Source: Microbacterium hydrocarbonoxydans (GTDB lineage: Bacteria; Actinomycetota; Actinomycetes; Actinomycetales; Microbacteriaceae). Taken from it: a DNA stretch of 64,000 nucleotides. Below, one piece after another: positions 1 to 21,012 of the stretch. Position 1 is the stretch's first letter. Each line of letters opens with the position of its first letter. Under the pieces are notes generated by a model. It worked only from the letters and a program-made list of their open reading frames with translations. It was not told the origin of the DNA and did no database searches. The translations under genes were made by a program, and so were the position numbers. The stretch covers positions 372,001 through 436,000 of the forward strand of contig NZ_FNSQ01000005.1 in assembly GCF_900105205.1 (NCBI RefSeq), read 5' to 3'.

Positions 1-26
1 CTTACCTCTCGGTGGGATAGGTCGGG

Positions 27-40: not shown

Positions 41-112
41 GGGGCATTGTCATAACTGGGAGTCACCTGTCAGCTCGATGGAGCAGGCGGCCACCCGTGA
101 TGAGGGGGAGCT

Positions 113-5746: not shown

Positions 5747-5761
5747 GGTGCCGTGTGAGAA

Positions 5762-5830: not shown

Positions 5831-5958
5831 GTGGCGAGTGCACAGATGCACCCGCACATACCAAGACACCGCGCGGCCGAAATCATGACGCGGATGTCGA
5901 ACCAGAATGTTGCGTGCCCCTGAGAAAGAAACTTGGGCCTATCGCGTCACGATCCGCT

Positions 5959-5970
5959 GATCCCGGTATC
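5959..5970 (+). promoter_or_regulatory. 12-mer GATCCCGGTATC upstream of the pilus operon
   Basis: This exact 12-mer recurs at 14814-14825. Here it ends 80 bases before the shaft pilin start; there it ends 81 bases before the start of a small membrane protein gene. Both copies are preceded by GATCCG within 2-7 bases and have CGCGTCAC nearby. The matched distance suggests a shared promoter or activator site. This is inference only. Confidence 0.35.
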
Positions 5971-6050
5971 CGGTAGGGAGAAGGGGATCACTGTGCGTAC
6001 CGCTGGTGGCCCGAAGACGGCCATAGGGCCATCAGGGACGGAGAGTTCAG

Positions 6051-7571
6051 GTGTCTGAACACAACAACACGCGCCGTGCGTTGTCGCTTCTGGGAGCGAC
6101 CGCACTCGGCCTGGGGGCGATGCTCAGCGCGGGCGCTGCTGCACACGCAGCTCCTCAGGATTTCGGGAACATCGATCCGGACCGCACCGGTTCGCTGACA
6201 GTGCACAAGTATCTGCACCAGGACGGTGCCGTCGAGGGTGACATCAGCGAGGCGCCGGCGCCCGGTGACTTCACCGATCCGGTCGCGGACGTCGTCTTCA
6301 CGGCGTACCCGCTGCTGCAGAACGGCACGCCGCTCGACCTCAACGTGGCGTCGAGCTGGGATGGCCTGAACGCCATCACTCCCGGCGCCGCATGCACGGC
6401 ACCCGCCGGCTACACGCTGGGCGCTCCGGTTGCGCTGCCCGCGACGGATGCCGAGGGTATGGCCACGGTCGCGCTGCCGGTCGGCGCGTACCAGGTGTGC
6501 GAGACCTCGGCTCCGGCGCAGATCGTCGACCGGGCGATCCCGTTCATCCTCACGGTGCCGATGCCGTACCAGAGCGGATGGGTGTATGACGTGCACGCCT
6601 ACCCGAAGAACGGCGAGGGCGTGATCGAGAAGACGATCGACCCCCAGCAGGACACGGGTCTGGGTTCGGTCATCCGATTCCCGGTGACCGTGCCGGTGCC
6701 GACGATGCAGCAGGAGTGGACCGGCTTCGCCATCCGCGACACGCTGGATGACCGACTGGAGCCTGTCGCAGCGGCCGATGTCGTGGTCACCGCAGACGGT
6801 ACTGCTCTCGACCCCGCGCTGTACACGGTGGAGGTCGTCGGCCAGCAGGTGACGATGAACTTCACCGCAGCCGGTATCGCCTGGCTCAACGAGGGTCCCA
6901 ACGACCACGTCGGCACTGAGATCCAGGTCGTCTTCGCCGGAACCGTGGTCAGCGTCGGCAACGGCACGATCACCAACCAGGCCGAGCTGTGGCCGAACAA
7001 CCCGGGCTTCGACCCGGCTGTCCAGCCGCCGCTGCCCTCCAACGAGGTCAAGACCTACTGGGGCAGCCTCGAGGTGCAGAAGCGCGTCGCAGGGACCACC
7101 GGCACGCAGGGCACCCTGAACGGTGCCGTGTTCGAGGTGTACAACGCCGTCGACCCGTACGCGGCCGACTGCTCTGCGGCTGAGCCCACCGGTGCACCGG
7201 TCGTCGTCAACGGCGAGACAGAGTTCACCTCTGCGGGCACCGGTCTCATCACGGTTCCCGGCCTGTTCGTGAGCGACAGCGTGAACCCGGTGATCGACGC
7301 CCAGCAGCGCTGCTACTTGCTCAAGGAGACGGTCGCACCGGCCGGGTTCGTCCTGCCTGCCGACCCGTTCACTGCGGTCGCCGTGCAGATCGGCGCAACG
7401 ACGCCGGCGGACAACGTCGAGATCGAGAACACGCAGCAGACCGTTCCGGCTCTGCCGATGACGGGTGCTGCAGGGCAGATCGCCCTCATCACCGCAGGCA
7501 TCGGCGCGCTGAGCCTGGCCGTCGGACTGCTTCTGGTGAAGCACCGTCGTCGCGTCGAGGCGACGAACTAA
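6051..7571 (+). CDS. Major (shaft) pilin, SpaH/FimA-like, LPMTG anchored
   Basis: A 506-residue sortase-assembled shaft pilin. The GTG start is followed by a signal peptide of about 33 residues ending AHAA. Features typical of Gram-positive shaft pilins are visible: a pilin motif 'WVYDVHAYPKN' with the candidate linking lysine at about residue 186, an E-box 'YLLKETVAPAGF' (Glu about 426) in a Cna-B-type domain, and the sorting signal LPMTG at 468-472 followed by a membrane helix and a KHRRR tail. It is first in the order shaft pilin, sortase, large pilin. A strong hairpin separates it from the sortase gene, which probably favours high pilin-to-sortase expression. Confidence 0.93.
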   Translation: MSEHNNTRRALSLLGATALGLGAMLSAGAAAHAAPQDFGNIDPDRTGSLTVHKYLHQDGAVEGDISEAPAPGDFTDPVADVVFTAYPLLQNGTPLDLNVASSWDGLNAITPGAACTAPAGYTLGAPVALPATDAEGMATVALPVGAYQVCETSAPAQIVDRAIPFILTVPMPYQSGWVYDVHAYPKNGEGVIEKTIDPQQDTGLGSVIRFPVTVPVPTMQQEWTGFAIRDTLDDRLEPVAAADVVVTADGTALDPALYTVEVVGQQVTMNFTAAGIAWLNEGPNDHVGTEIQVVFAGTVVSVGNGTITNQAELWPNNPGFDPAVQPPLPSNEVKTYWGSLEVQKRVAGTTGTQGTLNGAVFEVYNAVDPYAADCSAAEPTGAPVVVNGETEFTSAGTGLITVPGLFVSDSVNPVIDAQQRCYLLKETVAPAGFVLPADPFTAVAVQIGATTPADNVEIENTQQTVPALPMTGAAGQIALITAGIGALSLAVGLLLVKHRRRVEATN

Positions 7572-7580
7572 GAGCACCAC

Positions 7581-7620
7581 CCTGTACCGGACGGATGCGC
7601 AGGCACCCGTCCGGTACAGG
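7581..7620 (+). terminator. Perfect hairpin between shaft pilin and sortase genes
   Basis: CCTGTACCGGACGG (7581-7594) pairs exactly with CCGTCCGGTACAGG (7607-7620) around a 12-base loop. There is no T-run. Its position after the abundant pilin and before the enzyme gene suggests a partial terminator or 3' stabilising structure that sets stoichiometry within the operon. Confidence 0.6.
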
Positions 7621-7657
7621 CCATCGACCATGCGTAGATCCGGGGAGGAACGACGCG

Positions 7658-8683
7658 ATGCTCATGCGTGAAGAAGAGGTGGCGCCGCCAACGGCCGTCG
7701 AGACCGGTGAGGGTGCCGTGACGAGTGCGTCGGGACGCCGGTGGAAGCCGGGCCTGCTCACGATCGCCATCGCCGTGCTGGGCCTCGGAGGCCTCGGCGC
7801 CGGCGTGTATCCGATGACGGCCGCCTGGGTGACGTCGTTCAACCAGTCGCAGGTCATCGAGAACTATGGAGCGGAGATCGAGAACGTGCACCCCGGTGCA
7901 CGTGAGCAGCTCCGCGACGCGCGCGACTACAACGACGCCCTGAGCGCCGGCGCAGTGGTGCTCGGCGAGAACGCCAACCTCCCGGTCGGAGAGGGCACGC
8001 TCTCCGACGAGTCGCTCGACTACGACACGATCCTCAACGCGAACGCCGAGGGCTTGATGGCCCGCGTGAAGATCCCCAGCATCGACGTCGACCTGCCCGT
8101 GTTCCACGGGACCAGCGACGCGGTGCTCACTCGGGGCGCAGGACATCTGGAGGGCTCGCATCTGCCGATCGGCGGAGAGGGCACGCGGTCGGTCATCACG
8201 GCGCACCGCGGCCTCGCGAACGCGACGATGTTCACGAACCTCGATCAGGTGAAGACCGACGATCTGATCATCGTCGAGGTCTTCGGCGAAGTGCTCGCGT
8301 ATCGGGTCCGCGACATCCAGGTCATCGAACCTCAGGCCAACGGCACGATCCGCCCGGAGGTGGGCGAAGACCTCCTCACGTTGATCACCTGCACGCCGCT
8401 GGGCATCAACACTCATCGCATCGTCGTCACCGCTGAACGCGTGACCCCGGTGCCCGACGCCGAGGCATCCGCAGCCGGTAAGCCGCCGACCATCCCGGGG
8501 TTCCCGTGGTGGGCCGTGCTCGGCGGCGGCGGACTGCTGCTCATCGGCGGCTACGTCGTCAGGCAGGGCTTCCAGGATGCTCGCGCATCCGCTGCTCGGC
8601 CGCTGTCCGCACAGGCGGACTCCACAGATCTGAACACACCCCACGGTGACGCCACCGAGGGGCTAGGGGGAAGCAATGAATAG
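7658..8683 (+). CDS. srtC: Class C (pilus-assembly) sortase
   Basis: A 341-residue membrane transpeptidase that would polymerise the neighbouring pilins. The ATG at 7658 is chosen because GGGGAGG lies 9 bases upstream; a longer reading from 7595 would start inside the hairpin. An N-terminal membrane helix (about 27-50) and a second one near residues 280-300 flank the catalytic domain, the class C layout. Catalytic residues are visible: His about 183 in 'SVITAHRGL', Cys about 245 in 'TLITCTP' and Arg about 254 in 'THRIVV'. 'HGTSDAVLTRGAGHLEGS' is the usual class C signature. The 3' end overlaps the next gene by 8 bases, so the two are probably translationally coupled. Confidence 0.95.
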   Translation: MLMREEEVAPPTAVETGEGAVTSASGRRWKPGLLTIAIAVLGLGGLGAGVYPMTAAWVTSFNQSQVIENYGAEIENVHPGAREQLRDARDYNDALSAGAVVLGENANLPVGEGTLSDESLDYDTILNANAEGLMARVKIPSIDVDLPVFHGTSDAVLTRGAGHLEGSHLPIGGEGTRSVITAHRGLANATMFTNLDQVKTDDLIIVEVFGEVLAYRVRDIQVIEPQANGTIRPEVGEDLLTLITCTPLGINTHRIVVTAERVTPVPDAEASAAGKPPTIPGFPWWAVLGGGGLLLIGGYVVRQGFQDARASAARPLSAQADSTDLNTPHGDATEGLGGSNE

Positions 8684-11600
8684 CGATCACCGTTCGACAC
8701 CGGTGACAGGTGGGCGCAAGTCGATCCGTCACGCTGAGAGACGCGCTCGGATCAGAGCCTGGATGCGCAGGGCGGGCTCCGCGTTGCTCGCGGTCGCCGC
8801 CGTGGGCGGCGGGACGCTCGTGCCCGCTGTCGCCGCGCAGGCAGCGACCGTGTATGAGATCGAGGGCGAGTGGCAGGCGCCGGTACCCACAGAGGTCACC
8901 TACGGTGACCCGCTCGTCTCGGTGTGGCGCTTCAACATCAATGACGACAGCCCGGCGCCGACCAACGAGCCCGTCGACAACGTCACCTTGACCTTCACGG
9001 TGCAGAACGCCAGGTTCACCACTGTGCCTGACGTCTGTCTCGCGACCGGAGTCACGCCGGTGTCCTCGATCTCGGCGGACGGCACGACGCTGGTGTGCAA
9101 TGTCGGGACCCGCGACCAGGGCACCGCAGAGCTGATGCTCACGGGGCTCGAGGCGCGAGGGGATTCGGGTACCGCCGTCAGCATCACGGGCTCGCTCGGC
9201 GCCGTGCAGGCTGCACTTCCCGAGATTCCGATCGTGAACGAGTTCGCGATGGACATGAAGTTCGACGGAGGGAAGCCCGACAACACGCAGGCGGGTGCGC
9301 GTCAGCAGATGGCGTTCCCGTGGGCGCTGCGTCATGCGTCGGGTTCGACGCCCGGCCCGAACACGGTCAGCTACAACCTCACCTTCTCGACGACCGGCGG
9401 CGAGACTGTGACGCCGCAAGTGGCGGGGTGCACCGAGCAGAGCATCAAGCAAGCGGGGTATCCGTACTCCGGAACAGGACATGCGGCGAACGAGACCGCG
9501 CCATTTCCTGCCACGTGCACGCTGGTATCAACCGGCACGAATCGGATGCGGCTGACTCTCACAGGAATCGACTACTCCAAGACGGTGCTGCCGTCGCAGG
9601 ACTCCGGGGGTGGGGAGCTGGAACCCGGGTGGGATGTCGTCGCCGCAGGCCTGGTGAACATCCAGTTCACCTACATCAACCGCACGACAGTGACCGTCGT
9701 GTCTAGCGCCCCCGTGTACACGTCGACTGTCGGTGAGACCTCGGCCGATGCTGCTGCCAACAACACCAATGCGCTCGCGGCTACACGGGGCGATTGGACC
9801 GGCGGGTGGGCGCTCGGTTCGCTGAATCCTCCCCAGCCGGGTTCGACCTGGACTGATACCTATCGTGCGATGGCCGGTGGCCCCGCCCGACAGACTGCGG
9901 GCGTTCGGACACCGAACGTGGGCGCGACGCAGAGCACTCAGATCTGCAGCATCGTCGACTCCCGTTACGTCAACGTGGTCGACGCGAAGATGGGGACCGT
10001 GACCGACGGTGTCGTCGCACCGTACGCGGGAATCACGTACTGGTACTACACCGGGACGGGCGTCAGCAATAACATGAACCCCACGCACGCGAACTACGAC
10101 CCGAACACGTTCGTCTGCGATGGAAGCACCGGGTGGACGACTGTCAAGCCCGCCGACATGAGCACCGTCCGTGCGGTGAAGGCGATCGTCTCTCCCGCCG
10201 CGGGTGCCGCCATCGGCGAGAGCATCGCCCGCCTCTACGTCGACTCGACGGTCAAGCCGACTGTCGCAGTGGGCCAGGACATCTGGACCTGGACGTCATA
10301 CAGCGTCAACGGCGGAACGAGCTGGTTCAACCTGAACAGGTCACTGAACGCAGCGGATGTGCCTGCCAACGGCACGGTGACACCGGACTCCCGCTACCCG
10401 TACACGTCTGGCGGGCGTGATGTTCTGCGTATCATCGCGGCCACTCCCGCCATCACGAAGTCCGTGGACCAGCGCGAGACGATTCCTGGGGCGACGGTCA
10501 CGTACACGCTGACGTATCGGGCGAACGCAGCACTGAGTGCGACGGTTCCGTCGGTCGCGGTGAGCGATGTGCTCCCGGCGGGAATGCAGTACGTCGCCGG
10601 CAGCGCATCGGTCGCACCGACGAGCATCTCGGGTCAGACCCTCAACTGGACGTTCGCGAACGTTCAGACGAACACCGACTACGTGATCACGCTGAGTGCC
10701 AGGATCCCCGCCGACGCGGATCCCGGAGACGTGTACGAGAACACGGCGACCACCACGGTCGCCGGGGTGACAGCCACGGCCACCGCCGAGACCAAGATCC
10801 GCGACGGCGGCTACACGATGCTGACGAAGACGGCCGCCGAGGCGAAGGTCCCGCACGTTCAGGGTGTCGCCTCGGACTCGTGGACGGTGCGGATCTCGTC
10901 GCAGGACACGAGGACCCAGACCTTCACCGATGTCGTGGACGTGCTGCCGTACAACGGCGACGGTCGCGGGACTGACTTCTCGGGCAGTTACGCCCTGAGC
11001 GGTCCGGTGACCGCGGTCGCCGGCGCGAAGGTGTACTACACGACTGCGGCCCCGGCCACGCTCGTCGACGACCCGGCCGACGCATCCAACGGAGCGGCGG
11101 GCTCGATCACCGGCAACACCGTGGGCTGGTCGACGACGTTCACCGCGAACGCGACCGGCGTGCGCGTCATCGGGCCGGCCCTGGCGCCGTCCAGCGCCCA
11201 GGAGTTCGTCATCCCGGTCGTCACGAGCGGTGCCACGTTCGAAGACGTCTACGTGAACCGCGCTGAGGCGCGATCCGACCGCACCGAGCTGGTGATGCGC
11301 ACCTCGAGCCGCTTCGAGATCGGTGCCGTGAACTCGGTCGCCCTCAAGAAGTACGTGCAGGATGCCGACGGTGAGTGGCACGACGCGAATGACATCGACG
11401 ACTTCCCGCAGATGCATACCGGTGACACCGTCACCTATCGACTGGTCGTCACCAACACCGGTGACCAGACGCTGCACGACCTCGTGATCACCGACGACAA
11501 GGTCGACCTGGCATCCCTCGACCCGCTTCCTGCGGGACTCGAGCCCGGTGCCATCATCGCTGAGCTCCTGCCCGGCGCCGAGAACGCCGTCACGATCGAG

Positions 11601-12203
11601 TACCAGGTGCCGCTCACGGCGATGCCCGACGGCGGTCAGCTCGTGAACACGGCCTGCGTCGTGCCGGAGGACACCACGCCGCCGGCGCCGGGCGAGCCTG
11701 CGCCGGTCGAGGAGTCGTGCGACCCCGCCGGAATCACGGTTCTGCCGTCGAGCCTGACCTGGGAGAAGATCGCTGAAGGCTCCGAGGTGCCTCTGGCGGG
11801 CTCCGAGTGGCAGCTCACACCGGTCGATGCGAACGATGCGCCCACGGGCGCGGCAATCGATGTCGTCGACTGCGTGGCCGCGAACGCGACCGGATGCACG
11901 GGACGCGATATCGCGCCGGAAGCGGGTGTGCTGACCGTGAATCCGCTGACGGACGGTCGCTACCGCCTGGTCGAGACGAAGGCGCCCGCGGGCTACCAGC
12001 TCGACCCGACGCCGCACTACATCGACGTCGTGGGCGAGACGACGTTCGAGGATCCGATCGAGAACGTCCAGTCCGAGGTGCCCACCATCCCGCTCACGGG
12101 GGGGATGGGAAGCGACCTCTTCTGGATCACGGCGGGAGCGCTGGCGACAGCGGCGATCGGCGGTCTGCTGTGGCAGCGCCGCCGGCGTAGAACGCGCGAC
12201 TAG
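8676..12203 (+). CDS. Large IPLTG-anchored pilin/tip adhesin with DUF11 and SpaA domains
   Basis: An 1175-residue wall protein starting at ATG 8676, inside the end of the sortase gene, with a G-rich ribosome site (8666-8670). A long basic signal peptide runs to about residue 58 (AQA). A large unassigned N-terminal region (60-590), perhaps the adhesive head, is followed by two DUF11-like domains (about 590-710 and 885-1000) and a SpaA/Cna-B domain (about 1025-1130) with the E-box 'YRLVETKAPAGY'. The sorting signal is IPLTG at 1138-1142, then a hydrophobic helix and an RRRRRTRD tail. Size and operon position suggest the tip or ancillary pilin. The ligand is unknown. Confidence 0.88.
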   Translation: MNSDHRSTPVTGGRKSIRHAERRARIRAWMRRAGSALLAVAAVGGGTLVPAVAAQAATVYEIEGEWQAPVPTEVTYGDPLVSVWRFNINDDSPAPTNEPVDNVTLTFTVQNARFTTVPDVCLATGVTPVSSISADGTTLVCNVGTRDQGTAELMLTGLEARGDSGTAVSITGSLGAVQAALPEIPIVNEFAMDMKFDGGKPDNTQAGARQQMAFPWALRHASGSTPGPNTVSYNLTFSTTGGETVTPQVAGCTEQSIKQAGYPYSGTGHAANETAPFPATCTLVSTGTNRMRLTLTGIDYSKTVLPSQDSGGGELEPGWDVVAAGLVNIQFTYINRTTVTVVSSAPVYTSTVGETSADAAANNTNALAATRGDWTGGWALGSLNPPQPGSTWTDTYRAMAGGPARQTAGVRTPNVGATQSTQICSIVDSRYVNVVDAKMGTVTDGVVAPYAGITYWYYTGTGVSNNMNPTHANYDPNTFVCDGSTGWTTVKPADMSTVRAVKAIVSPAAGAAIGESIARLYVDSTVKPTVAVGQDIWTWTSYSVNGGTSWFNLNRSLNAADVPANGTVTPDSRYPYTSGGRDVLRIIAATPAITKSVDQRETIPGATVTYTLTYRANAALSATVPSVAVSDVLPAGMQYVAGSASVAPTSISGQTLNWTFANVQTNTDYVITLSARIPADADPGDVYENTATTTVAGVTATATAETKIRDGGYTMLTKTAAEAKVPHVQGVASDSWTVRISSQDTRTQTFTDVVDVLPYNGDGRGTDFSGSYALSGPVTAVAGAKVYYTTAAPATLVDDPADASNGAAGSITGNTVGWSTTFTANATGVRVIGPALAPSSAQEFVIPVVTSGATFEDVYVNRAEARSDRTELVMRTSSRFEIGAVNSVALKKYVQDADGEWHDANDIDDFPQMHTGDTVTYRLVVTNTGDQTLHDLVITDDKVDLASLDPLPAGLEPGAIIAELLPGAENAVTIEYQVPLTAMPDGGQLVNTACVVPEDTTPPAPGEPAPVEESCDPAGITVLPSSLTWEKIAEGSEVPLAGSEWQLTPVDANDAPTGAAIDVVDCVAANATGCTGRDIAPEAGVLTVNPLTDGRYRLVETKAPAGYQLDPTPHYIDVVGETTFEDPIENVQSEVPTIPLTGGMGSDLFWITAGALATAAIGGLLWQRRRRRTRD

Positions 12204-12327
12204 CGAGACCCGGCATAGCCCGGTCGATGCGCTCTCTCGCGTCGGCCGGGCCATCGCTGCTCGACCAGCGCGAATGCGTTGCGGCCGGGCATCCGTGTGG
12301 TGAAGAATCCTGAGTGAAGGGGAGACC

Positions 12328-14034
12328 TTGTCCGATCATCCAGATGGCTCCGAGGCCCGCTCTGATGACGACCTCGTTCAGCTCGTGCGCAACGGAGACA
12401 CGAAGGCGTACGGGGAACTCTGGAAACGTCATACCGGCCCGGCGTACTCCGTCGCGCGCACGTTCGTCTCGCTGGACGCTGATGACATCGTGTCTGAGGC
12501 GTTCGCTCGGGTGCTGCGTGCGATCCAGGCCGGCGGTGGACCGACAACGGGGTTCCGACCGTATCTGATCATGACGGTGCGCAATGTCGGTCGGCGGTGG
12601 TACGTGCAGCACACCACCATCAACGTCGCCGACCTCGAGTCCGAGGTCGATCCCGATGCTCGTCACGGCGAGGACACGGTCGTCGCGGAGCTCGAGAATG
12701 AGGCCACGCTCACAGCGTTCCGATCTCTGCCGACGCGCTGGCAGGAGGTTCTCTGGTACAGCGAGGTCGACAGCATGAAGCCGCGCGAGATCAGCGTTCT
12801 CCTCGGCCTCGCCCCGAACGCGGTCTCCGCGCTGATCGTCCGTGCGAAGCGCGGCCTGCGTGACGCGTGGATCAGCGCACAGCTGAGTGGGGCCCGCACC
12901 GCGGAATGCGAGGCGGCGATCAAGGACATGGGCGCGTACACCCGCGGCGCGCTCTCGACACGTGCGAACGCGACTCTCGAGCGACACCTCTCGACCTGTC
13001 CGACCTGCCCGAAGTCGCTCGCCGAGGCGCGGAACCTCGCCAACATCGCCGTCGCTCTGCTGCCGGTCGTCGCAGGCACCGCCGGCGCCGCGGGGTACCT
13101 CAGCACGCTGGATGCTCCGCCGATGTCCGCCGCCATGGCGTTGGGCGAGGGACTCGGGGTGTCGTCGGATGCTCCGACGCCCCCTCCCGAGGATCGCAAG
13201 AAGCGTCGGTGGCTGCTCCTCCTCCTGATCGCGCTGCTGGCAGCCGCTCTGGCCGCATCGATCTGGCTGAGCACCCGACCGTCCGATCCGGCGGGGACGG
13301 ACGGCGACGGGGAGGGTGCGTCCGCTCCGACGGATCGAGCGGCCCCGACCGCATCCGCCGATCCGACCGCGACGCCGACACCGGCACCGACGCCAACGGC
13401 CGAGCCTTCACCGGACGCGAGCACGCCCCCGGGCGGCCCGGGCGCGCCGCAGCCCAGCAGCCCGCCCGGTGACTCGCAGAACCCGCCGGTGAACTCACCG
13501 AGCACGCCGCCCCCGGCTCCCGTCGCCTCTGTCGTGCAGCTCAACGGCAGCATGTACCCCCGGATCACTGGAAACGACGCGGCGCCCGGCGCCCGTGTCG
13601 AGGTGCTGGCCGGCGGTTCTGTCCTGGCCTCGACGACGGCGCGCAGCGACGGCTCCTGGTCCGTGCACCTCACCGACGCGGCACCGGGCAGTCATGTCGT
13701 CGCGGCGCGACAGGTCGTCGGAGGTGTCGCGTCGGCATCCGGTGGCGCGCTCTCGTACACAGTGGGCGGCGGTCCCAGCCCGTCCAGCCCTGCGGCCGGG
13801 GCCACGGTCACGGCATCCCGCTTCGCCTTCACGATGACCGCGGCGGCCGGAACGGTTCTCCAGCGCGAGATCGTCGGCGTCACCCCGGTGCAGACCATCC
13901 GCATTCCCTCCAGTGGGGCGTGGAAGGAGTACCTGGCCGTCCCGGCCGGCTCGCACACCATGAAGCTGCGGTATGCCAACCCGTCGACCGGAGACTTCGG
14001 TCCGTGGTCGAGCACGAGCTTCACCGCGCAGTAG
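12328..14034 (+). CDS. ECF sigma factor fused to a zinc anti-sigma-like segment, membrane helix and outer Ig-like domain
   Basis: A 568-residue one-protein sigma/sensor. The TTG start is set by AAGGGGAG at 12317. Residues about 15-95 are sigma-70 region 2 and about 125-190 are region 4 ('PREISVLLGLAPNAVSALIVRAKRG'). Next comes H220-x3-C224-x2-C227, the core of zinc anti-sigma (ZAS) motifs, then a membrane helix at about 294-314 after RKKRRW, a Pro/Ser/Thr-rich linker (320-390), and a C-terminal Ig-like domain ('GSMYPRITGNDAAPGARVEVLAG') extending to the end. No separate anti-sigma gene lies nearby, as expected if the regulator is built in. It sits just after the pilus genes, so their regulation is a reasonable guess. 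ECF groups with C-terminal extensions are known in actinobacteria. Confidence 0.88.
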   Translation: MSDHPDGSEARSDDDLVQLVRNGDTKAYGELWKRHTGPAYSVARTFVSLDADDIVSEAFARVLRAIQAGGGPTTGFRPYLIMTVRNVGRRWYVQHTTINVADLESEVDPDARHGEDTVVAELENEATLTAFRSLPTRWQEVLWYSEVDSMKPREISVLLGLAPNAVSALIVRAKRGLRDAWISAQLSGARTAECEAAIKDMGAYTRGALSTRANATLERHLSTCPTCPKSLAEARNLANIAVALLPVVAGTAGAAGYLSTLDAPPMSAAMALGEGLGVSSDAPTPPPEDRKKRRWLLLLLIALLAAALAASIWLSTRPSDPAGTDGDGEGASAPTDRAAPTASADPTATPTPAPTPTAEPSPDASTPPGGPGAPQPSSPPGDSQNPPVNSPSTPPPAPVASVVQLNGSMYPRITGNDAAPGARVEVLAGGSVLASTTARSDGSWSVHLTDAAPGSHVVAARQVVGGVASASGGALSYTVGGGPSPSSPAAGATVTASRFAFTMTAAAGTVLQREIVGVTPVQTIRIPSSGAWKEYLAVPAGSHTMKLRYANPSTGDFGPWSSTSFTAQ

Positions 14035-14080
14035 GCGCGACGGCTCCGCGGCAATGGCGGCGTCGAAGCAGGAGGGGTTC

Positions 14081-14112
14081 AGGAGGGGGAGCGAGAGGCG
14101 CTCACCCCTCCT
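14081..14112 (+). terminator. Hairpin after the sigma-factor gene
   Basis: AGGAGGGGGAGCG (14081-14093) pairs with CGCTCACCCCTCCT (14099-14112), with one bulge. A second small stem, CACCGG with CCGGTG, follows at 14137-14156. Together they probably end the sigma transcript and separate it from the leftward gene at 14269-14745. Confidence 0.5.
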
Positions 14113-14268
14113 GCCCGGACCGGGTGCCGGGATTCTCACCGGCGGGGAGGCCGGTGTTCTCCGAGTGGGGATCGGAGTAAGGGGTTGGGGCCCCTTTCAT
14201 AAGACCAGATCCCCTCACCCCGTGATCGTGACGGCAGTTCCGAAACATTTCTTGCGAAGTCGCACGGA

Positions 14269-14745
14269 TCACGAGGCACGGCGCAGAGCCGCCCGTGCCC
14301 GGTCCGCCGATTCGGAGGCCACGCAGTAGATCGCGAGGATGAGCGATGTGATCCGCACCGAGTGGTTGAGCCATCCGCGCGCGGCGAGGGTGTTGGTCAC
14401 GACAGTCTGCTCGCCGAGCAGGTCGCCCTGCCCGCGCAGCCCGTCCGACAGCCACTGACGTGCCATCGTCATGTCGGTCTGAGTGATGGCGCCGCCAGGG
14501 GGCACGATCGAACAGCCCTCGGCATCCATCGGGATCGCGTCGATGGTACGCAGCGCGTCGAGGGCTCCCGAGAGCGCGCCGCCGACGAGGTATTGACTGG
14601 TCTCGCCACGCAGGAGCGCAGCCCAGGTGTCGAGCGGGGCGATGTCCTGAAGCCTGAACGACCTGGCGTCCTCGGCGGTGAGGGCGCGCTCCAGTGCGCG
14701 GTAGACGTCACGGTGGTGAGCGGGAGGGGCGATCGTGGTGCTCAT
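14269..14745 (-). CDS. Conserved-looking hypothetical protein, no recognised domain
   Basis: A 158-residue soluble protein, not recognised. The ATG is preceded by AGGA. It is mostly helical and acidic to neutral, with no signal peptide and no clear membrane segment. A hydrophobic stretch lies near residues 128-145 ('VRITSLILAIYCVASES'). It is divergent from the small membrane protein at 14907; the roughly 160-base spacer holds the 12-mer shared with the pilus leader. It converges on the sigma-factor gene. Codon use looks native. Function cannot be assigned. Confidence 0.6.
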   Translation of the reverse strand: MSTTIAPPAHHRDVYRALERALTAEDARSFRLQDIAPLDTWAALLRGETSQYLVGGALSGALDALRTIDAIPMDAEGCSIVPPGGAITQTDMTMARQWLSDGLRGQGDLLGEQTVVTNTLAARGWLNHSVRITSLILAIYCVASESADRARAALRRAS

Positions 14746-14813
14746 GGGGTCCTGACTCTCTCGATGACCTGTGTCATCAGTTACAGACCCGCCAGAACCC
14801 GATCCGTTACGCG

Positions 14814-14825
14814 GATCCCGGTATC
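14814..14825 (+). promoter_or_regulatory. Second copy of 12-mer GATCCCGGTATC
   Basis: Identical to 5959-5970 and at nearly the same distance (81 versus 80 bases) from the next rightward start codon. GATCCG lies 7 bases before it and CGCGTCAC just after. It is a possible common promoter element for the island, conceivably read by the membrane-tethered ECF sigma factor encoded between the two copies. Confidence 0.35.
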
Positions 14826-14906
14826 TCGCGTCACATATCAGCGGGATGCGCGTCTTGCTTGTAGGGCGCAGAAGCGCCGTGAGACCCGCATCCGAGAGGC
14901 ACCTCC

Positions 14907-15245
14907 GTGGTATCGACGCTCAGCATCTGGAACGACCTCGCTCCGCTCTTCGAGTTCCTCGGTGCAGCCGGGTTGATCGTCGCGATGTCGGCGGCTGCCG
15001 TCGCCGGTGTCGCCGCAGGGTTCGACCGGGCGGATGCCGTGGGCGTGAGCACCGGGATCTGGCTGACCGGTGTCCTGTTGAGCGGATGCGCGAGCTATGC
15101 CGGTGGATGGTGGGTGATCGGTGTCGCGCTCGCCGCATACCCGGCGGCGTTGCTCGTCGGGACCCTGGCCAGAGTCGTCGCGCTGAACACAGAGGTGGCG
15201 GCCGCGTGGCGACGCGCGGGAGCAGATCGACGCGTTTCGGGCTAA
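14907..15245 (+). CDS. Small membrane protein, hypothetical
   Basis: A 112-residue protein from a GTG start with GAGAGGC upstream. Three hydrophobic segments are visible at about residues 14-37, 48-70 and 72-92 ('GWWVIGVALAAYPAALLVGTLARVV'), followed by a short Arg-rich cytoplasmic tail. No family was recognised. The 12-mer shared with the pilus operon leader lies 81 bases upstream, so it may be co-regulated with the pili. The segment from 15246 to the next gene at 15396 contains no convincing gene. Confidence 0.5.
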   Translation: MVSTLSIWNDLAPLFEFLGAAGLIVAMSAAAVAGVAAGFDRADAVGVSTGIWLTGVLLSGCASYAGGWWVIGVALAAYPAALLVGTLARVVALNTEVAAAWRRAGADRRVSG

Positions 15246-15395
15246 CCGGATCACGGTTCAGCCGTTTCGTGACGCAGTTCAAAAATGTTCGCGATTCCTA
15301 CGGCGAGTCGCGATTTTCGAGTAGCGGCGGGGGTTGTCGGCCCGCCATTCTGAGCGGCAGCGCGATGAGGCGCTGATGAGTATCGGGGGATTCTT

Positions 15396-15809
15396 GTGAC
15401 TGGTCGATCGATGTGGCGACGTGGTGTCGGTGCGGTGCTGGGTGCGGCGGCGGTGTGGGCGATGGTGCTCGCTCCGCAGGCTGCGCTCGCTGCGATGGAA
15501 CCAGGAGCGCACTCGTCCGCGGCAGTGGTGTCGGTCGACGCAACGACGATGATGACGACGGCGGACGCGAAGGACGCCGACGACGACACGATCCCCGACG
15601 TCGTCGAGCGTGAGGTGTGCGGCACGGCGACGTGTGCGGTGGGCACGGAGGACGAGGATGCCGACGGCATCCCGGACTGGACCGAGGTGCTGTCGTGTGA
15701 CAGCCCCAGGCCGTCCAGCGTGCTGCAGCCCGAGCAGGAGCCGCGGCTGGCATCGCCTCACGAAACGCCAAAGCGGCGGCCTTCAACAAGCGTGCGACGG
15801 CCAGCCTGA
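15396..15809 (+). pseudogene. Head fragment of a secreted RHS/YD-type toxin, frame broken
   Basis: The first ~100 residues look like the start of an exported polymorphic-toxin or surface protein: an Arg-containing signal peptide ('VLGAAAVWAMVLAPQAALA') and two acidic calcium-binding-like motifs ('DADDDTIPD', 'DEDADGIPD'). At about 15700 the reading frame leaves this sequence and enters, out of frame, DNA homologous to the RHS core-tip junction found again at 17500-17650. The remaining ~35 codons are therefore nonsense. This looks like a deletion joining the 5' end of an RHS gene to a distant toxin tip. The GTG start is preceded by GGGGGA. Confidence 0.6.
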
Positions 15810-15847
15810 GTCGAGGGCCGGGAGGCGGCACCTCGGGCTTCAAGCCG

Positions 15848-16471
15848 ATGAGTATCTCGACCGGGCAGCGGGTAAACACTCCATCCGCTCGGACAAGCAC
15901 ATTCGTTTCGGCGACGCACGCGGAATGTGTGTACTTCGATCACGCCTGCCGCGCGACTCTCTCTGGGCCCCCTGTCCGGCTCTCTGCGGAACAGTGGGTC
16001 GGAATGGGACTCGCGGTCCTCGGTGCAGCTGCCATCGTCGCGGGCATGGTATGCATCGCCGCCAGTGGCGGAACGTGCGCCGCGCCGCTCGTCGTTTTCA
16101 CGAACACGGCAGTGACGGCAGGCCGAGGGGCAGTAGTTCTCTCGAGCGTCACGATCACCGTGGGGGCCGCGGCGGGGACGGCCGTCGGAATCGGCGGCGT
16201 CGCCGGGATCACTACCGGCACCGGCGTGCTCTTCAACAAGTCCAACGGGGGAAGCGATGTGCCCGGCTCTCTAAGCCGAGGCGACATGAAGAAGCTCGGG
16301 GACAAGCAGTATGAGAAAGCCATGGGAGAAAGCGCTCATGACTTCAAATGGGATGTTGTCGGTGGACAGGTTTCAAGATGGGACATATATCACGGAAAGG
16401 ACGGTATGCTTTACCTGATAAGCAAAGACGGTCGTGTGATAGTTCCGACGTATAAGCCTTGGAAGGGGTGA
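15848..16471 (+). CDS. Displaced RHS toxin tip (tip A), truncated at its 5' end
   Basis: A 207-codon frame from an internal ATG. The same frame is open back to 15701, where it reads 'RAAARAGAAAGIASRNAKAA', matching the junction of the second RHS fragment. It carries hydrophobic alanine/glycine-rich segments (about residues 50-110) and a polar C-terminal domain of about 70 residues: 'LSRGDMKKLGDKQYEKAMG', then 'HDFKWD' and 'RWDIYHGKDGMLYLISKDG'. The HD.K...(W/Y)DIY..KDG pattern resembles short RNase-like toxin tips (polymorphic toxin type 33 or cytotoxic-RNase style), from memory only. It is followed after 6 bases by a DUF4279 gene, the expected immunity position. The last 150 bases are visibly AT-richer than the chromosome, as is common for mobile tips. 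Confidence 0.6.
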   Translation: MSISTGQRVNTPSARTSTFVSATHAECVYFDHACRATLSGPPVRLSAEQWVGMGLAVLGAAAIVAGMVCIAASGGTCAAPLVVFTNTAVTAGRGAVVLSSVTITVGAAAGTAVGIGGVAGITTGTGVLFNKSNGGSDVPGSLSRGDMKKLGDKQYEKAMGESAHDFKWDVVGGQVSRWDIYHGKDGMLYLISKDGRVIVPTYKPWKG

Positions 16472-16477
16472 AAGCTC

Positions 16478-16897
16478 ATGAATAGCTCGCAACCCGAACT
16501 CACCCACACGAGCCGAGCATATTTTCGGGTCACTAGTTCCTCCATGACGCTGGATGAAATGATTGGAGTGCTCGGCGTTGCTCCGAGCAGCGGTTGGTCG
16601 AATGGCGACCGAGTGACACGAGGGAACGGCAGCTTTGAGCGCGTCATGACGTTTAGTTCCTGGACACTGGAGTCGCCGTTAGGTCTGGACGCACCCATGC
16701 ACGAGAAGCTTGAAAGCCTGTATGAACCCGTCCTTGGCCTTTCGTGGCGGCTCTCAGGACACGATTCTCTTAGATGCACGCTCCAGCTTGTCCAATACTT
16801 TTCCGAGCCGGGAGATCTCGGATTTAATCTTTCGAATAATTGGTTGTCACTCTTGGCCGCAGTTGGCGCTGAGTTTGACGTTGATCAATATCGATAG
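16478..16897 (+). CDS. DUF4279 protein, putative immunity protein for tip A
   Basis: A 139-residue cytosolic protein; the ATG lies about 10 bases after GGAAGGGG. The pattern matches DUF4279: an N-terminal 'RAYFRVTSSSMTLDEMIGVLG' strand-helix, 'SSGWSNGDRVTRG', a central 'WTLESPLG', and a C-terminal 'NNWLSLLAAVGAEFDVDQY'. Members often sit next to polymorphic toxins and are treated as immunity proteins. It begins 6 bases after the tip A stop and ends just before the second RHS fragment. GC content is lower than in neighbouring housekeeping genes, consistent with transfer together with the toxin tip. Confidence 0.75.
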   Translation: MNSSQPELTHTSRAYFRVTSSSMTLDEMIGVLGVAPSSGWSNGDRVTRGNGSFERVMTFSSWTLESPLGLDAPMHEKLESLYEPVLGLSWRLSGHDSLRCTLQLVQYFSEPGDLGFNLSNNWLSLLAAVGAEFDVDQYR

Positions 16898-16904
16898 GTC
16901 TGCT

Positions 16905-18395
16905 ATCACGACGCAAGCGGATGGGCGGTCGACGTCGTATGCGTATGACGGGTTGGATCGCCGCACGGGCGTGACCGACCAGACCCTGCACGGGACGGAC
17001 ACGACCACCACGGCGTGGGACGGGTTCGAGCCCGCCGCGACCGACAGTGACCTGCACGGGGTGACGAGCCTGTTCCGCGACCCCCTCGGCGCCGTCGCCT
17101 ACCAGGCCGGTGCGTCCGGAGGCGAGTGGGTGCTCGGTGACCAGCGCAACGTGACCGCAACCGCGGGCGCGAATGGGCAGATCACCGACCTGGTGAACTA
17201 TGCGGACTTCGGTGGTGCGGAGTATGAGTCCACCGGGTGGGCATCCCTCGTCGGCAACGACCAGCAGCCTGGTGACCCCACCCTCGGCCTGGACAACTAC
17301 TACGCCCGTGACTACGACCCCACGACCGGGTCCTGGGTGCAACCGGATGACTGGCGCGGGTTGTTGGTGCGCCCGCAGTCATTGAACCGGTACTCGTACA
17401 TCGAGAACACCCCGGTGTCGTTCAGTGACGACCTCGGGTACGTCAGAAGCTATATGAGGGCCAGCGGTGGTGGGAATCGTCCGAGTGTGGTCAAGCGTGC
17501 AGCGGCGAAGGCAGGTGCTGCAGCCGGTGTCGCAGCACGGAACGCCAAAGCAGCGGCCGTGCGGACACGGGCCATGGCCAGCCTGACCCGTGGACCCGGC
17601 GGAGGAGTCTCCGGCTTCAAGTCCACGAGCATCTCCCCGCGACACCGTGTCAGCACGCCCATGGCGCGCTCCGCCGGGCTCCTGCCGACGAGGCACCTGC
17701 TCACACCGACCGGCTGCGACCGCATGGACAAGAACTGCGGAGGCAACGGCAACCTCTTCGGCTGGAGCGACGACATCTGGCGCACGATCGGTGCAACTGC
17801 CGTTGGCGTGCTGGTCGGCATCGTTGTAACCGCGGGCGCTATCGCGGCGGCGGGATGCGTCGTGGCCACGCTCGGCGCTTGCGCTGGGGTCATCGCCGCC
17901 GCAGCCATCATTGGTGGCGCCGCGGGCGGATTGGCGTCCTACCTCTTCGCCACGCCAGCGAGGGAGCGAACGCCATCAGAGATGGTCCTTTCGACCTTGG
18001 TCGGCGCCGCAGGCGGAGCGATTGGTTCCATTGCCGGTGCGCTGATCAGCCGCGTCATCGCGGGCACTGTCGCGGGAGTTGGATCCAAATCAGGATCGGC
18101 GTTGGGAGGAGCTCAAGTCGGAACAACGCTGAGTCGCTCCCAACTGAACCCAACTCAGCTAGCGGATCTGAACCGATACACGAAGAGACTGCCAAAGGGT
18201 GCAGGTGAAACGACGATTACGCAGGGAGCAGACGGGACCCTGAAGTTCTCGGCGGTAGTGCCCGGGATTGTTCCCGGTTCCTCTGCGATATACACCAAAG
18301 TCGTCGACGCTTCGGGCAAAACGATTGGATACTTTAAGACTACGGTTACCCCAGACGGCTCTATCGCCCATATCAAGGATAAATTCGTCAAATGA
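16905..18395 (+). CDS. RHS core C-terminal fragment with toxin tip B (headless)
   Basis: About 497 codons of RHS sequence begin abruptly at 'TTQADGRSTSYAYDGLDRRTG' with no upstream RHS repeats. The frame is open upstream only through unrelated DNA under the DUF4279 gene. The diagnostic RHS core end is present ('GLDNYYARDYDPTTGSW', 'SLNRYSYIENTPVSFSDDLGY'), after which the variable tip starts. The tip has an Arg/Ala-rich linker, long hydrophobic stretches (about 17800-18080) and a C-terminal domain of about 95 residues ('KRLPKGAGETTITQGADG', 'YFKTTVTPDGSIAHIKDKF'), probably a toxin. A putative immunity gene overlaps its stop by 4 bases. Without a head or secretion signal it is probably an orphan cassette kept for recombination, or a relic. 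Confidence 0.65.
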   Translation: MTTQADGRSTSYAYDGLDRRTGVTDQTLHGTDTTTTAWDGFEPAATDSDLHGVTSLFRDPLGAVAYQAGASGGEWVLGDQRNVTATAGANGQITDLVNYADFGGAEYESTGWASLVGNDQQPGDPTLGLDNYYARDYDPTTGSWVQPDDWRGLLVRPQSLNRYSYIENTPVSFSDDLGYVRSYMRASGGGNRPSVVKRAAAKAGAAAGVAARNAKAAAVRTRAMASLTRGPGGGVSGFKSTSISPRHRVSTPMARSAGLLPTRHLLTPTGCDRMDKNCGGNGNLFGWSDDIWRTIGATAVGVLVGIVVTAGAIAAAGCVVATLGACAGVIAAAAIIGGAAGGLASYLFATPARERTPSEMVLSTLVGAAGGAIGSIAGALISRVIAGTVAGVGSKSGSALGGAQVGTTLSRSQLNPTQLADLNRYTKRLPKGAGETTITQGADGTLKFSAVVPGIVPGSSAIYTKVVDASGKTIGYFKTTVTPDGSIAHIKDKFVK

Positions 18396-18745
18396 ATCGA
18401 AAGCGAGCAAGACTGACGTTGCTGCGAGCACTCGTGACCTGGGACGGAGACCCTGCCCAACTCACGCGCGAGCTTCTGTCATCTCCGCCTTTCGTTCGTT
18501 CGGGGCTGGTCGTCTTGCGTCTTCAAGATATCGATGCTGCAATCCGGCGCTTCGTCAGCGGAAGGGCTAGTGCGGAGGATCTGGCCGATTGGGCAGAGTG
18601 CGTCCACACAGTTGAAGACATTGACTTGGATGATGCGGCTCGCGACCTTATTGCACAGGCGCTTTTCGAGCTCTCCACCCCCGAACTGTTTGGCTCTATG
18701 GAAGACATCTCGACCTCACTGCTTCGCCGAATCAGCTCCAGTTGA
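18392..18745 (+). CDS. Putative immunity protein for tip B
   Basis: A 117-residue helical protein whose ATG overlaps the stop of the tip B frame (ATGA), a strong sign of co-translation. Its middle and C-terminal part are acidic ('LQDIDAAIRRFVSGRASAED', 'WAECVHTVEDIDLDDAARDL'). The family name is not recognised. The assignment as immunity rests on position, small size, acidity and coupling to the toxin tip. Early codons are AT-richer than the window average. Confidence 0.6.
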   Translation: MNRKRARLTLLRALVTWDGDPAQLTRELLSSPPFVRSGLVVLRLQDIDAAIRRFVSGRASAEDLADWAECVHTVEDIDLDDAARDLIAQALFELSTPELFGSMEDISTSLLRRISSS

Positions 18746-19184
18746 GCTGGAGACGCCCGCGCCGGCAAACGCTGCGAGGCGCATCGACAGTTTCGGATGC
18801 GCTTGGCAACATCTCAGTCGCTAGCGGGGATTCGCTTGTCGTGGGAGGTGACAATCCCGGCCTGATCACGACTACGGATGAGCCTCCCCACTTGGAGCAC
18901 GGATACCACTACTACGTGCAGCTCAACGAGGAAGAGGGAATCGTGTCCTCTGCTCGTTACTCGATTCCACCAGCGGGGCTCGGAAAGGGCGAGTCGTTGA
19001 CCTCGCACGGTGACGTCCGTACGACTGCGTGCGAGTGGCCCGATCGAACTGGGACAGTAACCGCACCGCGTGGGCGGTCACCGGTGCAGAAGCGGGCGAT
19101 TCTGCCCTGACGGCGACGTTCAACCCGGCGGGCCAGCTCACGGGGACGACAACCACGGTCTACATAGGTGGCGATTTCTCACCG
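18746..19184 (+). pseudogene. Decayed coding debris after the RHS cassettes
   Basis: No intact gene. One frame (18742-19110) reads protein-like sequence ('GDSLVVGGDNPGLITTTDEP', 'YHYYVQLNEEEGIVSSARYS') that degenerates near 19000. Another frame (about 19040-19180) reads 'TAWAVTGAEAGDSALTATFN' and 'GQLTGTTTTVYIGGDF'. This looks like remnants of at least two former genes, perhaps more toxin-locus parts, but no family could be named. Confidence 0.4.
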
Positions 19185-19204
19185 CGGAGACGATCGGAGC
19201 GCAG

Positions 19205-19444
19205 ATGCGGCATCCCTACGAGGTGACGGCTTTCGTCGAGCGAGGCTGGTGGCTGGTGCACGCCGTCGACGTCGGCGCACAGGTGCGGGTCAGCACGCTC
19301 GCGGAAGTCGAATCTGCGGCCCGCGAGCTCTATGCGCGGCGTCTCGGCATGAAGCTGGCCGACGTCGCGGTCACCATCCAGGTGTACCGGTCGACTCCTG
19401 CAGCGGTCATCCGCGCCCGCTGGATCGGGCGCGTACGCCGCTGA
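19205..19444 (+). CDS. Small HicB-like domain protein
   Basis: A 79-residue protein from ATG 19205 with GGAG 5 bases upstream. The fold pattern 'YEVTAFVERGWWLVHAVDVG..VRVSTLAEVESAARELYARRLG' resembles the partial RNase H fold of HicB-type antitoxin domains: a beta strand, a WW-containing strand, then a helix. No HicA partner or DNA-binding domain is seen beside it, so a toxin-antitoxin role is not supported. It ends 6 bases before the convergent DUF808 gene. Function unknown. Confidence 0.5.
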   Translation: MRHPYEVTAFVERGWWLVHAVDVGAQVRVSTLAEVESAARELYARRLGMKLADVAVTIQVYRSTPAAVIRARWIGRVRR

Positions 19445-19450
19445 CCGGCG

Positions 19451-20368
19451 TCACACGTGGACGTCTGCCGGCGACTCCTCGCCCTCGTGGAAGCTGGGCT
19501 TCTTGCCGATCAGGCGGCCGATGCCGAGGATGACACCGACGACGATCAGACCGGCGACGAGACCGGCGATGGCGGAGAACAGGGTGTCGCCGATCCAGAC
19601 GATGACGCCGCCGGCAGGCTCCAGGAAGTGCTCGATGGCGTGCAGGATGTCGGCGCCGAAGTGCACGCCCACCTCGCCGAGGTTCACCAGCAGCAGGTGG
19701 CCGCCGACCCACAGCATCGCCACGGTGCCGAGGATGCTGATGAAGCGGAAGACGGCCGGCATCGACCGGACGATCCTGGTGCCGGTGTGACGAACCCGCT
19801 TCGAGGGGTTCTTCGCCATCTTCAGGCCGATGTCGTCGATCTTCACCAGCAGCGCGACGGCCCCGTAGACGACGCCGGTCATGAGCAGGGCGATCACCGC
19901 GAGGATCGCCAGGGTGGTCCAGATGTCGAGGCCAGCCTCGAGGTTCGCGAGCGAGATCAGCATGATCTCCGTCGAGAGGATCAGGTCGGTGCGCACCGCA
20001 CCCCACACGAGCTTGTTCTCGTTGCGGGCGCTCTCATCGGCGTGGCCGTGCTGCACGCCGAACCACTCGAGCACCTTCTCGGCACCCTCGAAGCACAGAT
20101 ACGCGCCACCGAGGATCAGCAGGTAGGGCAGCACCCACGGCGCGAAGGCCGTCAGCAGCAGCGCGATGGGGATGATGATGAGGAACTTGTTGGCCAGCGA
20201 TCCGACGGCGATCTTCGCGACCACCGGCAGCTCGCGAGCGGGCGTGATGCCCTGCACGTACTGCGGGGTGACGGCGGCGTCGTCGATCACGACGCCGGCG
20301 GCCTTGGCCGAGGCCTTCATCGCCGCGCTGAGGATGTCATCGACGACGGCGAGCAGTCCAACCGACAT
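19451..20368 (-). CDS. DUF808 (YedI-like) inner-membrane protein
   Basis: A 305-residue multi-spanning membrane protein. The start 'MSVGLLAVVDDILSAAMKAS' is chosen because AGGGAG lies just upstream and it matches the usual family N-terminus; a longer frame adds 12 unlikely residues. Several hydrophobic helices are clear, for example 'FLIIIPIALLLTAFAPWVLP', two in the middle and two near the C-terminus. The DUF808 hallmark 'GGAYLCFEGAEKVLEWF' is present. Molecular function is undefined for the family. The gene stands alone, divergent from msrB. Confidence 0.88.
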   Translation of the reverse strand: MSVGLLAVVDDILSAAMKASAKAAGVVIDDAAVTPQYVQGITPARELPVVAKIAVGSLANKFLIIIPIALLLTAFAPWVLPYLLILGGAYLCFEGAEKVLEWFGVQHGHADESARNENKLVWGAVRTDLILSTEIMLISLANLEAGLDIWTTLAILAVIALLMTGVVYGAVALLVKIDDIGLKMAKNPSKRVRHTGTRIVRSMPAVFRFISILGTVAMLWVGGHLLLVNLGEVGVHFGADILHAIEHFLEPAGGVIVWIGDTLFSAIAGLVAGLIVVGVILGIGRLIGKKPSFHEGEESPADVHV

Positions 20369-20523
20369 GTGCGTCTCCCTGGGGGTATGTGTCCGGCTGA
20401 GCAACTCTATCGACTGCTTTCGAACTCACAGCGCGCTCACAGTTCCGCGGGACCAAATCGGGCCTCCGCCTGGTTCTCCTCTATGACGCTGCAGCCAGCC
20501 GCGTCAGACAAAGGAGACAGACC

Positions 20524-21012
20524 ATGTCGAACGAGTACGGCAAGACCCCGCAGGCGGTCAGCGACCTCACGCACCTGCAGTACGAGGTGACGCAGGAGGA
20601 TGCCACCGAGCCGCCCTTCCGCAACGCCTACTGGAACAACCACGACGACGGCATCTACGTCGACGTCGTCTCGGGCCAGCCGCTGTTCGCGTCGACCGAC
20701 AAGTTCGACAGCGGCACCGGATGGCCGAGCTTCACCAAGCCGATCGAGCCGGATGCGGTCACCACCCGCACCGATCGCACCCTGTGGATGAAGCGCACCG
20801 AGGCCCGCTCCAGCGGCGCCGACAGCCACCTCGGGCACGTCTTCGACGACGGACCGAGGGATGCCGGTGGCCTCCGCTACTGCATGAACTCCGCCGCCCT
20901 GCGCTTCATCCCGGCTGACAGCCTGGAAGATGAGGGGTACGGTCGCTACCGTCACCTCTTCGCCGGCTCCGACGCCGACACCACCGCATCCACCTCTGAG
21001 GAGCAGTCATGA
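20524..21012 (+). CDS. msrB: Peptide-methionine (R)-S-oxide reductase MsrB
   Basis: A 162-residue enzyme that reduces the R epimer of methionine sulfoxide in oxidised proteins. Motifs present: '[11 protein letters not shown]', '[10 protein letters not shown]' and '[13 protein letters not shown]', whose Cys is the expected catalytic residue. The pairs of CxxC zinc ligands of the zinc-binding MsrB type are not present: the region after 'GIYVD' reads VVSG. This is therefore a zinc-free form. ATG follows AAAGGAGA. The stop overlaps the msrA start by 4 bases (ATGA), giving a two-gene repair operon. Confidence 0.95.

Follow-up and report, generated by a model that had tools for sequence, protein, structure and literature searches.

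A membrane-tethered ECF sigma factor encoded behind a sortase-pilus operon, and its recurrent pairing with sortase pili in Microbacteriaceae

To our knowledge, little is known about how Gram-positive sortase pili signal their own assembly to the genome. The locus described here raises the question of whether a sigma factor that spans the membrane, encoded directly behind a sortase-pilus operon in Microbacterium hydrocarbonoxydans, could link the cell surface to transcription of that operon, or whether the two are neighbors without a functional tie. Membrane-fused ECF sigma factors have hardly been studied (PMC5826349). The window, i.e. the whole stretch of DNA analyzed, comprises 64,000 nucleotides, and the features on which the argument depends are as follows, with the evidence for each in parentheses.

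113 to 5746, plus strand: giant DUF7927/DUF11 surface protein with LAVTG tail (profile matches, sequence)
5944 to 5973, plus strand: candidate pilus-operon promoter, -35 GCGTCAC at 5944–5950, 16-bp spacer, -10 TATCCGG at 5967–5973 (conservation)
6051 to 7571, plus strand: SpaH/EbpB-family major pilin, LPMTG (NF033902, sequence)
7595 to 8683, plus strand: class C (pilus-polymerising) sortase (NF033745)
8676 to 12203, plus strand: large sorted SpaA/DUF11 protein, probable tip pilin, IPLTG (profiles, sequence)
12218 to 12251, plus strand: GC-rich hairpin in the gap from tip gene to sigma gene, a possible terminator (short of significance in the window)
12328 to 14034, plus strand: membrane-tethered ECF sigma factor, 568 aa (ORF, translation, Pfam, same-length homologue, AlphaFold2)
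12418 to 12603, plus strand: sigma region 2, aa 31–92 (Pfam PF04542 Sigma70_r2, above cut-off)
12706 to 12852, plus strand: sigma region 4, aa 127–175 (Pfam PF08281 Sigma70_r4_2, above cut-off)
12907 to 13008, plus strand: zf-HC2/ZAS anti-sigma-like zinc motif H-x3-C-x2-C, aa 194–227 (PF13490, above cut-off)
13198 to 13269, plus strand: single membrane helix, aa 291–314 (AlphaFold2, sequence)
13273 to 13509, plus strand: Pro/Ser/Thr-rich stalk, aa 316–394 (sequence, low pLDDT)
13510 to 14031, plus strand: two Ig-like outer domains, aa 395–480 and 481–568 (Pfam, AlphaFold2, Foldseek/VIA)

The sigma gene is an uninterrupted open reading frame of 568 codons beginning with TTG. In fold, the N-terminal half of the protein resembles ECF sigma factors, sigma-E among them, and TIGR02937 also scores above its cut-off. 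Zinc ligands C194, H220, C224, and C227, that is, the upstream ligand and those of H-x3-C-x2-C, are invariant across 32 aligned rows, and the zinc segment weakly resembles 3hug_B in sequence (E 0.0016), an entry that we take to be an anti-sigma protein. A basic RKKRR stretch immediately precedes the membrane helix. Pfam and AlphaFold2 agree with the first-pass annotation, which had placed sigma regions 2 and 4, the H-x3-C-x2-C motif, the helix, and the stalk in one 568-residue protein; its Ig-like outer domain stands as a fold but not as a single domain, since AlphaFold2 places two beta domains at ∼395–480 and 481–568, with a mean pLDDT of 89 at residues 391–400 and 94–98 per ten-residue block thereafter. 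Foldseek/VIA matches to the outer part are tandem Ig/Fn3-like repeats, the bacterial ones including Bap and SiiE. At E ≤ 0.1, Pfam reports for this part Ig-like Big_6 (residues 395–456), Big_3_5, and Big_13, all below their cut-offs, together with a chance-level HpiC1-like match and no carbohydrate-binding family, and a recognizable ligand site is absent from the Ig-like domains. The C-terminus lacks a sorting signal, and the protein was accordingly rejected as a sortase substrate. A frameshift or missed stop, named beforehand as the artefact that might have produced the fusion of sigma, helix, and Ig-like domains, is ruled out because homologues of full length exist elsewhere, one of 568 aa at 98% identity and one of 552 aa at 85%.

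This layout alone is not new, because ECF48, ECF52, and ECF53 share the plan of sigma factor, zinc finger, membrane helix, and extension and are thought to be released by proteolysis (PMC8999054, PMC5826349); the first-pass annotation was right that extended ECF groups had been described. Like the ECF52 protein SCO4117 of Streptomyces coelicolor, the first member of its group to be characterized (PMC5826349), and like ECF53 and ECF48, all of them from Actinobacteria, the protein combines an ECF domain, a PF13490 zinc finger, a helix, a proline-rich stalk, and an outer domain (PMC8999054, PMC5826349). The likeness to ECF52/53 is one of domain layout, the ECF52 traits found here being the zinc finger, the helix, and the proline-rich stalk. 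Unlike ECF52, the protein carries Ig-like outer domains and has no carbohydrate-binding match; unlike ECF52, ECF53, and ECF48, its gene adjoins a sortase-pilus operon, some of its relatives are fused to pilin, and a promoter signature is found at pilus genes. The published SCO4117 motif, CSGYN-17-SRHA (PMC5826349), also differs from the GCGTCAC-N16 signature described below. In IutY (ECF243) of Pseudomonas putida, sigma and anti-sigma are likewise fused in one membrane protein, from which Prc and RseP cleavage frees the sigma factor, but IutY belongs to another lineage and to iron signaling, and the available part of the source names no pilus or sortase link for it (PMC8999054). No description of a sigma/pilus pairing or of a sigma-pilin was found in the literature searched, which left most subscription papers outside its coverage; relative to that literature the pairing of a membrane ECF sigma factor with pili is new.

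The sigma gene begins 124 bp downstream of the tip-pilin gene (8676–12203), directly after the sortase-pilus operon as had been noted, and Pfam finds no anti-sigma family in the ten downstream ORFs (14269–21554) or the four upstream genes, in line with the earlier remark that a partner anti-sigma is missing nearby. The hairpin in the gap is not clearly better than shuffles in the window (z −1.7) and beats them at related loci (L118, −4.1; L036, −3.3; L037, −4.5; L038, −6.1). The GCGTCAC-N16 signature is missing from the 124 bp upstream of the sigma gene; as the gene thus follows the hairpin and lacks the signature, its expression may be separate from that of the operon under its putative control. 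A sigma-70 consensus scan of 5600–14800 returned no promoter and one terminator-like site, below the shuffle mean of 2.0, and Rfam gave no match in window positions 1–16000. Downstream of the sigma gene, 14900–18400 contains an Rhs-core match (16710–18395), a DUF4279 protein (16478–16897), and a weak Ntox33 match below its cut-off (15848–16471), and has the appearance of a locus of polymorphic-toxin type, or of what is left of one.

Association with pili was surveyed in 299 Microbacteriaceae genomes. Class C sortase matches came from 52 of them and amounted to 77 genes at 70 loci, all retrieved; sigma family members were sought in those same 52 genomes, and gene maps and sorting-signal calls were made with a simple ORF scorer and a loose pattern. 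A family member lies within 8 kb of the sortase-C locus in 11 of 70 cases, against 0.71 expected from per-genome densities (P ∼1e-11), an enrichment of ∼15-fold. At most 26 candidates per genome were scored and all 26 from genome G060 matched, which makes 26 a minimum there and the expectation of 0.71 too low; the figure obtained without G060, 9 of 68 loci against 0.48 expected, is unaffected. The 11 linked loci include one with weak or ordinary ECF matches only (L199), one whose sigma protein has no helix (L183), and two in which genes intervene (L222, L166). The remaining 59 sortase-C loci have no family member nearby, and only 35 of the 70 lie in genomes having any sigma family match.

Linkage is closest among the nearest relatives. 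In 119 Microbacterium genomes, six homologue genes were found in five genomes at E 1e-90, four directly 3′ of a tip-pilin homologue and two directly 3′ of a homologue of the DUF7927 giant protein, and M. paraoxydans (L037) provides a fifth pilus-linked close homologue. All five close homologues whose loci were located and surroundings inspected (our own, G020, G547 = L036, G575, and L037) are pilus-linked; co-occurrence with pilus genes, which the first-pass annotation had proposed as its test, is therefore found both here and in the locus survey. M. oxydans and M. paraoxydans carry a homologue of the DUF7927/DUF11 giant protein downstream of the sigma gene. The M. hydrocarbonoxydans genome itself contains another, divergent pilus operon with two family members in tandem behind it (L117, 7843–17602), as well as an unlinked core-clade member. 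In the similarity-selected set L036–L115, a sorted or pilin gene is the immediate neighbor for 8 of 78 members, and most of the core clade has no link to surface genes. Over all loci, a sorted or pilin gene lies directly upstream on the same strand of 36/155 sigma genes, a set that over-represents loci picked for pili, versus 77/1401 other genes of the same loci. For many family members the gene immediately ahead encodes a sorted surface protein other than a pilin: in G060, 17 of the 25 distinct members (18 of 26 with a duplicate locus counted) directly follow a same-strand ORF longer than ∼766 aa, and 16 of those 17 ORFs end in a sorting-like tail by the loose pattern.

On a tree of 103 family members, made by a quick method and having long branches, the label "linked" (a pilin or sortase gene at most three genes away) requires 8 changes, compared with a shuffled mean of 20.2, and at least five of the changes are forced by starred branches; unlinked similarity-selected loci were sampled at random, about 3 in 10. 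Since the label needs 8 changes, the pairing has switched state repeatedly. The recurrent pairing of this membrane sigma family with sortase pili is real.

As a separate observation, G060 (L281–L298) has its membrane-sigma genes, at least 26 in number, mostly right behind giant sorted surface proteins, and one of its loci (L286) holds three tandem pairs of membrane-sigma genes.

In Leucobacter the two systems meet in one protein. At loci L174 and L179, a pilin domain and a sorting signal continue the chain after sigma, zinc segment, and helix, and a database search yielded 14 protein clusters composed of sigma, zinc-type segment, helix, and pilin C-terminal domain; the six named clusters are all Leucobacter. 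Every one of the nine sigma-pilin loci examined lies inside a pilus operon, with the order sigma-pilin, tip, pilin, sortase in 7/7 loci of one genus-level group and sigma-pilin, pilin, sortase in the remaining two. NF033902 (SpaH/EbpB pilin) matches all six fusions scanned over profile positions ∼341–540 of 540; against its whole-protein cut-off of 95 bits P0003 passes (100.6) and the five others fall below (52–91 bits). Pfam SpaA (PF17802) exceeds its cut-off in two of the nine fusions searched with it. By both sequence and fold the best PDB match to the pilin part is 3qdh (FimA), followed by SpaD in sequence and EbpB in fold. The outer part of the fusions is thus a C-terminal domain of SpaH/EbpB-type pilins (FimA, SpaD, EbpB); unlike those pilins, the fusions have sigma in place of the N-terminal pilin domains and a sorting motif without proline. 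The SpaA-type pilin features they show are a D3 domain with a K/E/N triad and a sorting-signal tail.

Residues K419, E502, and N539 of D3 do not vary among the 14 sigma-pilins, nor does N384, the asparagine of the last D2 strand; all four presumably have an isopeptide role, after CnaB/SpaA domains. In the true pilin P0018 the equivalent asparagine is residue 316, within a K2N isopeptide domain match at 197–320. All 14 sigma-pilins read L[SAV]xTG at the sorting motif, the proline always being replaced, so that the LPxTG motif for class C sortase occurs in 0/14, and the pilins and tips of the nine fusion loci have LP[LMF]TG in 16/16. LAXTG is the substrate motif of class E sortase (PMC5148588). 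The nine fusion D3 domains form one clade within the Leucobacter pilin D3s, at 44–51% identity to the pilin of the same locus, and therefore derive from a single fusion event. The AlphaFold model of the sigma-pilin is poor (mean pLDDT 51.5), with D3 blocks mostly at ∼80–90 and dips to 47, and with the D2 strand at ∼40; because the model is poor overall, the fold matches rest on D3. Separately, a TAGNAT-like -10 lies a few bases upstream of several sigma-pilin starts (L261, L264, L267, L174, and L179), which suggests a leaderless housekeeping transcript.

A promoter-like signature recurs at these loci. All four Microbacterium loci share an unchanged 10-base block, TCGCGTCACG, upstream of the pilin gene, and GCGTCAC-N16 is followed by TATCCGG in three and by GGTCCGG in one (L036). 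In M. oxydans (L038), GCGTCAC-N16-AATCGGG precedes a gene for a sorted LANTG protein and then another family member, and in all nine Leucobacter fusion loci GCGTCAC-N16-[GCT]CTCT lies between the sigma-pilin and the next gene. In 22 genomes of two Leucobacter groups there are 23 distinct GCGTCACAT-N12-18-CTCT sites versus 6 for the reversed pattern; the nine fusion genomes hold 12 of these, nine at the fusion. The extra sites lie in G177 before a second tip-pilin operon (sigma gene absent in the 7 kb read), in G108 before a pilin remnant, and in G459 within ORFs elsewhere. Leucobacter genomes with a non-fused relative have 2 (G481), 2 (G466), 1 (G071), 0 (G458), 0 (G463), 1 (G264), and 1 (G347) sites, and six without a match at E ≤ 1e-40 have 0, 2, 1, 0, 0, and 1.

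Core-clade members have a related signature upstream of their own genes. GCGT[ACG]A[CT]-N16-CGTCTC occurs within 600 bp 5′ of the sigma gene in 61 of 81 loci (44 forward, toward the sigma gene, and 39 reverse). The 81, mostly but not entirely core clade, are the similarity-selected loci numbered L039 and higher, L048 and L054 excepted, together with core loci of the M. hydrocarbonoxydans genus; spacers of 12–15 and 17–20 give 0 or 1 each, and 807 control regions give 3 forward and 5 reverse. Divergent GCGTNAT-N16-CGTCTC sites were also often seen 5′ of the sigma gene at L116 and core-clade loci of L039–L115, which makes autoregulation of the core membrane ECF of Microbacteriaceae probable. GCGTCAC lies upstream of 21/69 surface genes near sigma, 14/167 surface genes not near sigma, and 124/1657 other genes, counts in which related loci are non-independent. 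No such signature was seen at four other pilus-linked loci (L117, L211, L200, and L183), and no strong shared motif or promoter was found for the surface-protein/sigma pairs of G060. A genome-wide search for GCGTCACG-N15-TATCCGG with 3 mismatches gave 222 sites versus 125 reversed and is too loose for a census, missing even a one-mismatch site at 15246–15275. That site, GCGTCAC-N16-GATCCGG on the minus strand, points to lower coordinates and has no clear target gene. The window contains 7 matches at up to 3 mismatches to the pilus promoter, no excess over the 5.95 expected by chance, and of the 7 only the exact site at 5944 is supported by conservation. The similar -35, together with a spacer of exactly 16 bp, connects the pilus promoters with the membrane sigma family; because the -10 element differs between clades, the assignment of sigma to target promoter is one that we infer. 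The tie to pili first proposed from this locus is upheld by recurrent linkage, pilin-fused relatives, and a shared promoter signature, but a strictly pilus-only reading is not, given the 8/78 count, the non-pilin neighbors, and the 59/70 sortase-C loci lacking a family member.

The computed anatomy, recurrent pairing, pilin-fused relatives, and promoter signature lead us to propose, with a probability of roughly 0.6, that the protein is a self-inhibited, membrane-held ECF sigma factor that is freed by a surface signal and switches on the adjacent pilus operon; zinc inhibition, the signal, proteolytic release, and use of 5944–5973 by this sigma rather than a paralogue are the steps that we infer. 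The ZAS-like zinc segment would hold sigma2/sigma4 inactive at the membrane while the two Ig-like domains would project outside on the stalk. The signal would most likely be the state of the pilus or of sorted proteins encoded alongside, an adhesin or the wall being other candidates, and regulated proteolysis, the route suggested for ECF52/53, would then probably free the sigma part. Once free, it would recognize GCGTCAC-N16-TATCCGG (5944–5973), as conservation of the site supports, and transcribe the pilin-sortase-tip operon. A more specific version, which we put forward tentatively and consider somewhat unlikely, is that the outer part mimics a pilin or adhesin and is bound or processed by sortase or pilin subunits, so that assembly or sorting state gates pilus transcription, the 12328–14034 protein being the Ig-domain version of the same loop. 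The Leucobacter sigma-pilin would fit such mimicry through its non-LPxTG motif and an orphan last D2 strand, with its isopeptide-type asparagine (14/14), ahead of a complete D3; the orphan strand could dock on pilin subunits.

As an alternative, the sigma factor might activate the pilus operon while sensing wall, sugar, or surface contact through its Ig-like domains rather than the pilus. ECF52 SCO4117 has a carbohydrate-binding domain (PMC5826349), the outer domains here resemble general Ig/Fn3 repeats, and some family members adjoin sorted non-pilin proteins; this is possible, and we hold it somewhat doubtful given that the Leucobacter outer part is a pilin domain and that 36 of 155 sigma genes lie directly 3′ of a same-strand sorted or pilin gene. 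The pilin-like end of the Leucobacter fusions might instead serve as wall anchor only, through a housekeeping sortase signal, with no sensor role, as the replacement of LPxTG by L[SAV]xTG in 14/14 and the use of LAXTG by class E sortases (PMC5148588) would allow; retention of a whole pilin domain with K419, E502, and N539 in 14/14, beyond what anchoring needs, makes this rather unlikely.

It is improbable that the core paralogue (C5:2827419) is the factor that reads GCGTCAC-N16-TATCCGG, the 12328–14034 protein only modulating or being redundant: core-clade loci do have a like -35 and the same spacer 5′ of their own sigma genes, but their -10 is CGTCTC rather than TATCCGG. Least probable of all, in our judgment, is a chance or passive neighborhood around a general ECF52-like regulator of envelope or development with targets elsewhere. 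The known ECF52 controls development (PMC5826349), core-clade members mostly lack a link to surface genes, and most sortase-C loci (59/70) are without a family member; set against these are the ∼15-fold enrichment, at least five changes of linkage on the tree, the location of all nine pilin fusions in pilus operons, and the promoter signature.

Returning to the proposed membrane-held sigma factor that answers a surface signal, the sigma-pilin, the recurrent surface-protein/sigma pair (17 in G060), and a specific promoter prediction open its function to direct tests and together suggest functions for many unannotated genes.
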